Assembly: GCF_002214485.1 (NCBI RefSeq)
Contig: NZ_CP015102.1
Span: forward strand, 248,001 to 312,000
Length of the DNA: 64,000 bases
From: Thermococcus pacificus
Lineage (GTDB): Archaea; Methanobacteriota_B; Thermococci; Thermococcales; Thermococcaceae
Direction of reading: 5' to 3'
Under the pieces are notes generated by a model. The model was given only the letters and a program-made list of their open reading frames with translations. It made no database searches and was not told the origin of the DNA. Shown in pieces: positions 43,835-52,269 of this stretch (the stretch's first letter is position 1; every line of letters begins with the position of its first letter). A program made the position numbers and the translations under genes.

Positions 43835-43946
43835 CGGAGCGGGCTAAGGGAAGGGGTTTAAAAATAGTGCGGTGCAGGATTGGGACCTAAAATGAATCAA
43901 TGCGCGGGAAAATCAAGATTATAAGAACAGAGAAAAGGGAAGGAAA

Positions 43947-44159
43947 TCAGATGACTTCCGCGAAAGCGAACTTCCTCTTGACAGAGTTGATAACGATCTC
44001 GACCTCGTCACCGACCTGAGTGTTCGGGACGAAGATAACGAAGCCCTTAATCTTGGCGATACCATCACCGCCCTTTCCAAGGCTCTCAATCCTAACCCTG
44101 TACCTTTCTCCAACCTTAACAGGGGCTTCATAGCCACCGCCAAATCCATCTCCATACAT
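43947..44159 (-). CDS. Small TRAM-domain protein
   Basis: 70-aa protein made almost only of a TRAM OB-fold: [43 protein letters not shown]. Stand-alone archaeal TRAM proteins bind RNA and act as cold-shock-like RNA chaperones. ATG 44159 follows GTTGGTGTTAG; a longer start at 44171 is possible. It is divergent from the mbh operon. Confidence 0.9.
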
Positions 44160-44388
44160 ATCTAACACCAACTTTCCAACTTTCAGGGCTCTTCATGGAA
44201 GACTCCTAGAAGAGTCCCAAGGAAGGCTTACCTTCAGAGTATATAAAGCTTTGGGTGGTTTTTGCAACTCCAAGGCCCCCAAAAGGCACTTTCAGACCAT
44301 AGTGGAACATCAATGCAGGGTTCCTGGAAACTCTCCCTCTCAGGCATGATTTAGACATCCCACGGTAGTGTATCATGTTTAACCTTTG

Positions 44389-44405
44389 GTTTACAACGGC
44401 TGGTT
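44389..44405 (+). promoter_or_regulatory. SurR binding site, distal, upstream of mbh promoter
   Basis: GTT-TAC-AAC-GGCTG-GTT fits the full SurR consensus GTTn3AACn5GTT. It lies about 33-50 bp upstream of the BRE/TATA (AAACCG TTTTAAAAG at 44438-44452). In Pyrococcus SurR activates the mbh operon under sulfur-free conditions from upstream sites, so the position fits activation. Confidence 0.8.
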
Positions 44406-44500
44406 TCCTACCTTTTTATGACAAATTAAACTTTAAAAAACCGTTTTAAAAGATTATCTTCTACTATCCACGGAAACGCGTGGAATAAAGCTCTAAATGG

Positions 44501-44517
44501 GTTGTAAACCAAAAGTT
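44501..44517 (+). promoter_or_regulatory. Second SurR-type site in the mbh 5' leader
   Basis: GTT-GTA-AAC-CAAAA-GTT also fits GTTn3AACn5GTT exactly. With the upstream site it forms an inverted repeat (TTTGGTTTACAAC / GTTGTAAACCAAA). It lies after the predicted transcription start (~44473) and 12 bp before the start codon of mbhA. A site here could block transcription or translation. Confidence 0.65.
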
Positions 44518-44529
44518 GAGGTGAGAAAC

Positions 44530-45033
44530 ATGCCTTTCATTGTCGCCTTTGTCCTGAGCTACCTGCTGTGGCTTGTACTGACTGCAGGGACAAACGGCCT
44601 GCTCTGGAGCACGCAGGAGCTGATAGCTGGACTGATATTTTCGCTGATAGTGGCCTACGCGACGAGAGATGTCATCGGCGAAAAGGCAGGAAGGTTCCTG
44701 AACCCGGCAAAGTGGATCGGCTTCATCGCCTATTCACCGGTCCTCTTCTGGGGGATGGTCAAGGCGAACCTCCAGGTTGCCTGGCTCGTCATAACCGGGA
44801 AGATACGGCCCGGCATCGTCAGGGTTCCCGTTGACCTCGAAAACGACGCCCAGTACACGATACTGAGCAACTCGATAACCCTAACGCCAGGAACGCTGAC
44901 AATCGAGGCCTGTCCGGAGGAGAAGGCCCTCTACGTTCACTGGATAAAGATACCAGAGGGAATGGAGAGGCTGGAAAGTTCCGAACCCGTTGCCGGGCCC
45001 TTTGAGAAATGGGCAAGGAGGCTGGGAAGATGA
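44530..45033 (+). CDS. mbhA: Membrane-bound hydrogenase subunit MbhA (MrpE-like)
   Basis: 167-aa membrane protein of the MrpE/MnhE type (LSYLLWLVLTAGTNGLLWS; NSITLTPGTLTIE) and first gene of the 14-gene membrane-bound hydrogenase operon. MBH oxidises ferredoxin, evolves H2 and pumps ions; the MrpEFG-like subunits belong to the ion-translocating half. ATG 44530 follows GAGGTGAGAAAC; the upstream frame overlaps a SurR site and is not used. Confidence 0.93.
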   Translation: MPFIVAFVLSYLLWLVLTAGTNGLLWSTQELIAGLIFSLIVAYATRDVIGEKAGRFLNPAKWIGFIAYSPVLFWGMVKANLQVAWLVITGKIRPGIVRVPVDLENDAQYTILSNSITLTPGTLTIEACPEEKALYVHWIKIPEGMERLESSEPVAGPFEKWARRLGR

Positions 45034-49428: not shown

Positions 49429-49994
49429 ACGATAATCCCGTTACCGAGGCAAACGAGGTTAAAGAGCCAACCAAGGCCGAGAAGGTCGCGAAGGTTATAG
49501 CTGAGCGCTTCCCTGAGGCAGAAGTTCAGGTAAAGACCAACAAGTGGGGGAGGCAGAGGGTCTGGGTGAGAATCCCGAGAGAAAAGTACAGGGAGCTGAT
49601 GGAGTTCGTAAAAACGCTCGACGGCGAGGCCCACTACTCGATAGGCATCGAGCAGGACTGGGGGGACGAATTAGGCTTCCTCAGCCACCTCCTGATTTAC
49701 TACGACGACGCTCCGGCGGTTTCCCTACTAGTAGATGTCCACGCGCCGAAAGACGACCCGGTGATTCCAGACATCAGCGATATTTTCCCGATAGCGCTCC
49801 AGTTCGAGAGGGAAGGCATGGAGATGGTCGGGCTGGACTTTGAAGGGGCACCTGACAAGAGGAAGCTCTTCCTTCCGGACGACTTCCCAGAGGGAATCTA
49901 CCCGCTCCGCCTGGACGACAAAGGCGTTTCAGAGGAAATGGTGCACAACGCTGGTCATCCCTACCTTATAAAGAAAGGGGGCGGATCTTCATGA
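49425..49994 (+). CDS. mbhK: MBH subunit MbhK (NuoC-like)
   Basis: 189-aa NuoC-like hydrophilic subunit (HYSIGIEQDWGDELGFLSHL; FEREGMEMVGLDFEGAPDKR). In MBH it braces the hydrogenase large subunit. It overlaps mbhJ by 4 nt. The N-terminal 30 residues are charged and variable. Confidence 0.94.
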   Translation: MNDNPVTEANEVKEPTKAEKVAKVIAERFPEAEVQVKTNKWGRQRVWVRIPREKYRELMEFVKTLDGEAHYSIGIEQDWGDELGFLSHLLIYYDDAPAVSLLVDVHAPKDDPVIPDISDIFPIALQFEREGMEMVGLDFEGAPDKRKLFLPDDFPEGIYPLRLDDKGVSEEMVHNAGHPYLIKKGGGSS

Positions 49995-51271
49995 CCGAGA
50001 AGGTCGAGTACTGGGTGAAGATACCCTTCGGACCGATTCATCCCGGTCTGGAGGAGCCAGAGAAGTTCATACTCACCCTGGACGGCGAGAGAATCGTTGA
50101 CGTAGACGTCAAGCTCGGTTACAACCTGCGCGGAATTCAGTGGATAGCCCTGAGGAGGAACTACATCCAGATAATGTACCTCGCCGAGAGAATGTGCGGG
50201 ATATGCAGTTTTTCCCACAACCACACCTACACGAGGGCCGTTGAAGAGGCCGGGGGAATAGAGGTCCCAGAGAGGGCCGAATACATACGCGTCATCATCG
50301 GCGAGCTCGAGAGAATCCACTCCCACCTGCTCAACCTCGGCGTTTTGGCCCACGACATCGGCTACGACACCCTGCTCCACCTCACCTGGCTGGCAAGGGA
50401 GAAGGTCATGGACACGCTCGAAGCCGTCAGCGGTAACCGCGTGAACTACTCAATGATAACGATAGGCGGTGTCAGGAGGGACATCGACGAGAAGAAGAGG
50501 AGGATAATCCTCGACATGATTAAGTACTACAAAGAGGTCTTTCCGCAGATCGAGGAGGCCTTCCTGCATGACCCGACGATAGAGGCCCGTTTCAGGGACA
50601 CGGCTGTGATAAGCAAGCGCGTTGCACTCGAGCAGGGAGCGGTCGGGCCAACGGGAAGAGGGAGCGGAATAAGGGACGACGCGCGCTGGAGCGAGAAGCT
50701 GGGCGTTTATCCTGACCTCGGGATAAAGCCCGTAATGCCCCAAGACGTTACCGGCGAGAGGCCGAGGGGCGATGTGTTCGACAGGATGGCGGTTAGGATA
50801 GGGGAGCTCTACCAGAGCCTCGAGCTAATCGAGAATGCCCTCGATGGGATGCCCGATGGAAAGATAAAGGCCTTCCCGAAGGACAACGTCCTCTACGCGA
50901 AGCTCCGCCTTATGGTCGATGGCGAAGGAATCGGAAGGTACGAGGCACCGAGGGGAGAGCTCGTCCACTACGTCCGCGGGAAGAAGGGAAGCGACAAACC
51001 GCTCCGCTGGAAGCCGAGGGAGCCAACGTTCCCGAACCTCTTCGCTATGGCAAAAGGAGTCATAGGCGACCAGGTCGCTGACTTCGTTATTGCGGTCGCC
51101 TCGATAGACCCGTGCTTCAGCTGTACCGACAGGGTTGCAGTGATACAAAACGGGAAGAAGAGAGTTCTGACTGAGAAAGACCTCCTCAAGGAGTCGATAA
51201 GGAAGACGCGCGAGATGAACCCCGATATCAAGGGAGACCCGACCCCAATAGGAGCGAGCTGTTCGAGGTGA
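49991..51271 (+). CDS. mbhL: MBH subunit MbhL ([NiFe]-hydrogenase large subunit)
   Basis: 426-aa catalytic subunit of H2 evolution. Ni-Fe ligands are RMCGICSFSH (C69, C72) and DPCFSCTDR (C375, C378). The group 4 features PFGPIHPGLEEPEKF and SGNRVNYSMITIGGVRRDID are present. The C-terminal cysteine motif is followed by 45 more residues. It overlaps mbhK by 4 nt. Confidence 0.96.
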   Translation: MTEKVEYWVKIPFGPIHPGLEEPEKFILTLDGERIVDVDVKLGYNLRGIQWIALRRNYIQIMYLAERMCGICSFSHNHTYTRAVEEAGGIEVPERAEYIRVIIGELERIHSHLLNLGVLAHDIGYDTLLHLTWLAREKVMDTLEAVSGNRVNYSMITIGGVRRDIDEKKRRIILDMIKYYKEVFPQIEEAFLHDPTIEARFRDTAVISKRVALEQGAVGPTGRGSGIRDDARWSEKLGVYPDLGIKPVMPQDVTGERPRGDVFDRMAVRIGELYQSLELIENALDGMPDGKIKAFPKDNVLYAKLRLMVDGEGIGRYEAPRGELVHYVRGKKGSDKPLRWKPREPTFPNLFAMAKGVIGDQVADFVIAVASIDPCFSCTDRVAVIQNGKKRVLTEKDLLKESIRKTREMNPDIKGDPTPIGASCSR

Positions 51272-51276
51272 TGGCG

Positions 51277-52269
51277 ATGGACGTCGTTGGAGAGCTCGTC
51301 TACCCCGTTGCCGGCCTTTTGGGCCTCTACGTCTTTGTCTCACTCACATCGCTCGTCTGGGAGGGAATAGACAGGAAGTTAGTAGCAAGAATGCAGAGGC
51401 GCATTGGGCCCCCGATCCTTCAGCCGATATACGACTTCCTCAAGCTGGCGAGCAAAGAGACCATAATCCCCAACACTGCCAACTTCATGTTCAGGGCAGC
51501 TCCTGTTCTGGCTTTAGCTACCGCCATAGCGCTCCTGGCTTACACTCCCATGGGCTTCGCGCCGATTTTGGCGAGCAAGGGTGACGTGATAGTGTTCATC
51601 TACCTCCTGACCCTCATCGGCTTCTTCAAGATACTCGGTGCCATAAGCTCCGGCAACCCCTACGCCAAGATAGGCGCCGCAAGGGAAGCGGCCATAATGG
51701 TGTCGAGGGAACCGGCCATGATGCTGGCGGTCTTCGCCATAATGTGGCGCCTCGGAAAGCTCGGAGTTCCAAAGCCCTTCAGCATGGAAATCTTTTACAC
51801 CCACAACATCTGGGAGATAGGAACGCCGATGAGCTTCGTTGGGGCATTAATCCTCCTCTACGTCTTCTGCGTCTGGCTGGCGAGTGAGATAGAGGTCGGG
51901 TTCTTCAACATACCCGACGCGGAGGAGGAGATAGCCGAAGGTCTGCTCGTTGAGTACAGCGGCAGGTACTTGGCGTTGCTCAAGCTGACGCACTCGCTGA
52001 AGGCATTCATCTCTGCCTCGCTCGTCGTGGCAATATTCTTCCCGTGGGGGATCTCAGGCTACTTCAACCTCACCGGCCTTCCGGCCCAGGTTGTAGACCT
52101 GCTCTTCCACACGCTGAAGGTCTTTGCCCTGCTCTTCGTCGTCCAGAGCGTCTTCAGGGCAGTTACGGGGAGGCTGAAGATAACTCAGGCGGTTGACTTC
52201 CTCTGGAAGAACGTCTTCCTGGCTTCGCTCATTGGCTCACTCCTCATAGCCATGGAGGTGATAATGTGA
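51277..52269 (+). CDS. mbhM: MBH subunit MbhM (NuoH-like)
   Basis: 330-aa membrane subunit with about 8 helices, matching NuoH/HyfC-type: RRIGPPILQPIYDFLKLASK, EIEVGFFNIPDAEEEIAEGL with the acidic ion-path residues, and SGRYLALLKLTHSLKAF. It anchors the hydrogenase module and couples it to ion pumping. The ATG at 51277 follows GAGGTGAT; ATG 51271 overlapping the mbhL stop is possible. Confidence 0.94.
   Translation: MDVVGELVYPVAGLLGLYVFVSLTSLVWEGIDRKLVARMQRRIGPPILQPIYDFLKLASKETIIPNTANFMFRAAPVLALATAIALLAYTPMGFAPILASKGDVIVFIYLLTLIGFFKILGAISSGNPYAKIGAAREAAIMVSREPAMMLAVFAIMWRLGKLGVPKPFSMEIFYTHNIWEIGTPMSFVGALILLYVFCVWLASEIEVGFFNIPDAEEEIAEGLLVEYSGRYLALLKLTHSLKAFISASLVVAIFFPWGISGYFNLTGLPAQVVDLLFHTLKVFALLFVVQSVFRAVTGRLKITQAVDFLWKNVFLASLIGSLLIAMEVIM

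Follow-up and report, generated by a model that had tools for sequence, protein, structure and literature searches.

SurR motif sites on either side of the mbh core promoter in Thermococcus pacificus and their distribution among the Thermococcaceae

The mbh promoter and its SurR motif matches

The DNA analysed here, referred to as the window, comprises 64,000 nucleotides (nt) of the Thermococcus pacificus genome (contig NZ_CP015102.1, positions 248,001 to 312,000) and contains the operon of Mbh, a hydrogen-producing enzyme, with SurR motif matches at its promoter. In these archaea, SurR acts as the master regulator that switches between making hydrogen and making hydrogen sulfide. Strict matches to the motif GTTn3AACn5GTT number three in the window as opposed to 0.35 expected, a count reached in none of 100 shuffles, and all three cluster at the mbh promoter: two overlap on opposite strands upstream, and one is located in the leader (Table 1). 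The upstream plus-strand match (GTTTACAACGGCTGGTT) and the leader match (GTTGTAAACCAAAAGTT) point in the same direction; the third (GTTGTAAACCAAAGGTT) reads on the minus strand from 44397 down to 44381 and shares a common core with the first. Together, positions 44381-44405 make up a nearly symmetrical 25-bp operator, AACn5GTTn3AACn5GTT. Genome-wide, the strict pattern occurs 40 times and a reversed control pattern 20 times; many of the matches can therefore be due to chance, while those at the mbh promoter are unlikely to be. Scored against the other strict matches in the genome, the leader site is mid-range (rank 22 of 38).

The existence of both motif sites is thereby confirmed. A preliminary description of this DNA had proposed two matches to GTTn3AACn5GTT, at 44389-44405 and 44501-44517, one upstream of the B recognition element (BRE) and TATA box and the other in the leader; the matches are strict and their positions agree, with the leader itself being predicted. 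It had further called the two sites inverted copies of one another. A 13-bp inverted copy does exist (44385-44397 versus 44501-44513), but it is formed by the minus-strand upstream reading at 44381-44397, which the proposed coordinates cut through, and not by the plus-strand site at 44389.

The start codon of mbhA was placed at 44530 by comparison with relatives, whereas the list of open reading frames (ORFs) begins the gene at the in-frame ATG 44497. Transcription starts about 23 bp from the TATA box in Thermococcus kodakarensis, according to passages from PMC4247193, and a transcription start near 44472 is predicted here, which would put the leader site at about +30 to +46. With this predicted start, the two SurR motifs flank the promoter, one upstream and one downstream of the TATA box.

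Table 1. Features of the mbh promoter and operon in the window
Feature	Position	Strand	Basis or remark
Upstream SurR site, minus-strand reading (GTTGTAAACCAAAGGTT)	44381-44397	-	Strict match; position conserved in the family; supplies the actual 13-bp inverted copy of the leader motif
Upstream SurR site, plus-strand reading (GTTTACAACGGCTGGTT)	44389-44405	+	Strict match; shares the palindromic core 44389-44397
Conserved block between upstream operator and BRE	44409-44436		Consensus of 75 distinct promoters, position weight matrix (PWM) scan; no SurR-site score
Probable BRE, A-rich	44437-44443	+	AAAA at 44437-44440 with 2.0 bits (50 representative promoters)
Probable TATA box, TTTTAA	44444-44449	+	Columns with 1.8-2.0 bits over 50 representative promoters
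Leader SurR site (GTTGTAAACCAAAAGTT), adjoining the ribosome-binding site	44501-44517	+	Strict match; family copies start at -31 to -29 in + orientation
Ribosome-binding site, GAGGTGA	44518-44524	+	Sequence; similar element before the start codon in aligned relatives
mbhA, MrpE-type antiporter subunit, first gene of the Mbh operon	44530-45033	+	NCBIfam NF006245, 308 bits (cut-off 192)
Hydrogenase-module genes, NuoD/hydrogenase-large-subunit-like and NuoH-like	49991-52269	+	Identify the operon as Mbh

A SurR orthologue (E 1e-91 to PDB 2qlz, PF0095) with the CxxC kept as CTEC in the N-terminal domain is present in the genome; a SurR site lies in the interval that separates its gene from a divergently oriented Pdo-like gene. 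The orthologue and the recurrence of both site positions across the family (see below) support the reading of the motifs as SurR-type sites and of the promoter as a genuine mbh promoter. Strict matches also occur before or near the genes for two FNOR-like proteins, CoA-disulfide reductase-like proteins, HypD, HypF, CbiM and others. SurR-type cores flank a TATA-like box in three further promoters, namely FNOR-like 1, FNOR-like 2 and the second MrpE cluster, where, unlike at mbh, the downstream site follows close behind the box. At the FNOR-like 1 promoter (L158, 2008-2044), the cores on the two sides of the TATA box are about 28 bp apart, and the ORF behind it probably starts at 2089 rather than at 2034. 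A search for other promoter pairs spaced by 40-60 bp returned eight places and was uninformative.

Two further observations concern the immediate surroundings of the promoter. The predicted transcription start region (44465-44484) contains a small inverted repeat, TCCACG...CGTGGA, and a small divergent ORF of 78 aa is located upstream of mbh (43919-44155), for which no NCBIfam or Pfam match was found at E 0.001.

Upstream operator and leader site across the family

The comparison covered 94 Thermococcaceae genomes, 93 of which contain mbhA relatives with an E value of 0.001 or lower. It draws on the 85 in which the match is close; in the nine genomes left out, the best match reached at most 51% identity or there was none. 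Each genome is represented by its single best mbhA, and the information content of alignment columns was computed over 50 representative promoters. The upstream core is 54-57 bp from the TATA box and exactly 55 bp away in 75 of the 85 promoters. At a spacing of 54-57 bp, the operator is present with at most one mismatch of nine in 78 of 85, and in both readings in 69; the remaining seven operators, five from Pyrococcus-like genomes among them, have two mismatches. The T. pacificus promoter, with 44381-44405 upstream of the BRE and TATA box and its core 55 bp before the latter, has the motif placement of a SurR-activated promoter. Key columns of the upstream operator carry up to 2.0 bits, those of the leader site 0.3-1.4 bits.

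The block at 44409-44436 is also strongly conserved across mbh promoters (consensus tACcTTT.TTT..aAttctaagcTT), with A44410, C44411 and T44413 at 2.0 bits. As a degenerate second SurR site it was rejected, since it gave no peak in a scan with a PWM derived from the genome's other strict matches; it is possibly the site of another factor.

Of the 85 promoters, 13 have a strict leader site, 19 a near-strict and one a short one, and 52 have none. All 13 strict copies are in the plus orientation and start at -31 to -29 relative to the start codon, with none in the opposite orientation, while Markov-resampled leaders yield a strict site anywhere on either strand at a rate of 0.00065 per leader. Five Pyrococcus-like mbh promoters (L014, L026, L028, L029 and L031) combine a strict leader site with a degenerate upstream site, the inverse of the usual pattern.

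The inverted repeat was rejected as a conserved unit and is regarded as incidental, contrary to the significance that the preliminary description had attached to it: the central three core bases are inverted copies in only two of 33 two-site promoters, those of the window's genome and its relative G072.

Possible roles of the leader site

With moderate confidence, and judging from sequence comparison, we regard the upstream operator as the site from which SurR activates and the leader as carrying an accessory SurR site, which would damp mbh without being needed for the sulfur switch. When sulfur is absent, reduced SurR would bind the 25-bp operator 55 bp before the TATA box and activate mbh; when sulfur is present, SurR would be oxidised and leave the DNA, and mbh transcription would fall. 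The leader site would act as a second SurR site occupied under the same reduced condition and, being about 30-46 bp inside the transcribed region, would most likely dampen or cap mbh expression as a partial block when SurR is abundant. Both the binding of SurR to this leader site and its damping effect are inferred.

Genome G024, which we take to be that of T. kodakarensis, is among those without a leader site. According to passages from a recent study, SurR sites upstream of the TATA box activate and downstream ones repress, some promoters need both for repression, and oxidised SurR loses its DNA binding (PMC12162507), so that both mbh sites would become empty together. Passages from another study report that, in T. 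kodakarensis, mbh is switched off almost completely within 20 minutes once sulfur is added (PMC4247193); taken with the leader of G024, this suggests that the upstream site suffices for the sulfur switch. A leader site occupied while mbh is on is expected to limit, not switch, expression, and an off switch in the leader that operates when sulfur is present does not agree with SurR unbinding on oxidation or with a sulfur response in T. kodakarensis that apparently manages without such a site.

Several observations weigh against a damping role. In the 56 promoters with long leaders, identity to single references is 0.30-0.48 at the fixed leader-site positions and 0.38-0.47 in the rest of the leader; on this sequence measure, the site columns are not clearly better conserved than their surroundings, which would speak against strong selection. 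About 15 changes of state are counted for the site on an mbh tree built from a 2-kb stretch of the operon (shuffled labels: mean 26.4, minimum 20), and it thus seems to be easily lost or gained. Furthermore, it is situated 57 bp from the TATA box, whereas the downstream sites of the FNOR-like and second MrpE promoters follow close behind the box, and the rule of repression may therefore not carry over. The same facts (absence in 52 of 85 promoters, turnover, unremarkable columns) would fit a genuine but almost neutral leader site, a leftover or decoy to which SurR may bind without noticeable effect on mbh, as would the sulfur response of T. kodakarensis (passages from PMC4247193) combined with the leader of G024. 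We nevertheless judge this rather unlikely: a site with at most one mismatch is found at one fixed position in 32 of 85 leaders, compared with 0.00041 per leader by Markov resampling, and it recurs in distant branches, Pyrococcus-like genomes included.

The leader motif abuts the ribosome-binding site, and near-matches often keep AAACCAAAAGT while the first or last GTT is altered, as might be expected of a translation or RNA element that resembles a SurR site by chance. This explanation is quite improbable. Shuffled sequence folds as well as the leader RNA does (z -0.03), and Rfam gave no match to the latter, whereby an RNA structure or riboswitch in the leader was rejected; AAACCAAAAGTTG, allowing up to one mismatch, occurs at only six places in the genome, three of them overlapping SurR matches, and is thus not a general leader element. 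The chances are close to negligible that the site belongs instead to a SurR-controlled antisense promoter. There is a precedent in T. kodakarensis TK2012, reported in passages from PMC4247193, but none of the 33 site-bearing leaders shows a TTWTAW box on the minus strand within the 25 nt in which one is expected, and the antisense promoter was rejected on that ground.

The preliminary description had also raised the prospect of looping, in which two SurR molecules, one on each flanking site, would touch and the promoter between them would be looped out. The distance between the cores is indeed 112-116 bp in 19 of the 33 two-site promoters. This spacing follows the distance from TATA box to ATG, though, which is equally constant in long-leader promoters without the site, and spacing maintained for its own sake was not found among them. 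The FNOR-like 1 pair, only about 28 bp apart, indicates no shared looping distance, and SurR would leave both sites under the same condition. Looping is thus without specific support and very improbable, and the preliminary interpretation as a whole is partly supported.

SurR sites on both sides of a TATA box have reportedly been described for the FNOR1 and FNOR2 promoters of T. kodakarensis in work by Hidese et al. from 2017, which is also said to have included mutants of each site. This is the arrangement found at mbh here; at the FNOR-like promoters of the present genome, the sites hug the TATA box, while the mbh sites are 55 and 57 bp away. The FNOR work is quoted for both sites being essential to repression in some cases (passages from PMC12162507). 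The paired arrangement at mbh itself is already published. Thermococcus piezophilus mbh (Mrp-Mbh) is listed with SurR motifs 21 bp (leader-proximal) and 127 bp (long) from the start codon (PMC8595942, Table 2), distances identical to those of our locus L038; the pairing is the same as here, but its leader motif is a short form by strict match, whereas in T. pacificus the leader motif has the complete long form and repeats the upstream core exactly in inverted orientation. Thermococcus barophilus mbh2 has two long motifs, as here, 11 and 96 bp from the start codon (PMC12162507, Table 2), but both are in reverse orientation and the distances differ. The fixed 55-bp spacing, the family-wide symmetric 25-bp operator and the two leader forms described below come from the present comparison and were not met in the literature passages searched. 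Experiments on an mbh leader site did not turn up in the papers searched, which cover the primary SurR work only by quoting it.

Long and short leader forms

The mbh leader exists in two forms, a long ATG form with the TATA box about 86 nt before the start and a TTG-start form that is 22 nt shorter. An automatic TATA call assigned 56 promoters to the long class (TATA box at -93 to -83), with a leader site in 31 of them; two of the 56, L006 and L017, in fact represent the short form, with a TTG start and an additional TATA-like box at -62. In 24 promoters the TATA box lies about 59-66 nt before the start, which is TTG throughout, and only a near-site is present, in two of the 24; short-leader promoters, to which that of G024 belongs, are therefore mostly devoid of the site. 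The two forms are intermixed on the mbh gene tree. G000 and G020, for instance, are tree neighbours that differ: the leader of G000 is nearest to long leaders elsewhere, that of G020 to short ones, a difference that could reflect swapping or repeated loss. Leader forms may thus be exchangeable at mbh, and the leader may be a swappable module that sets the strength of SurR restraint on hydrogen production, a notion we hold to be unlikely.

The conserved part of the mbh promoter in this family is the upstream operator with its 55-bp spacing, while the leader site comes and goes. Close relatives with and without the leader site provide a natural comparison for what a second SurR site adds.
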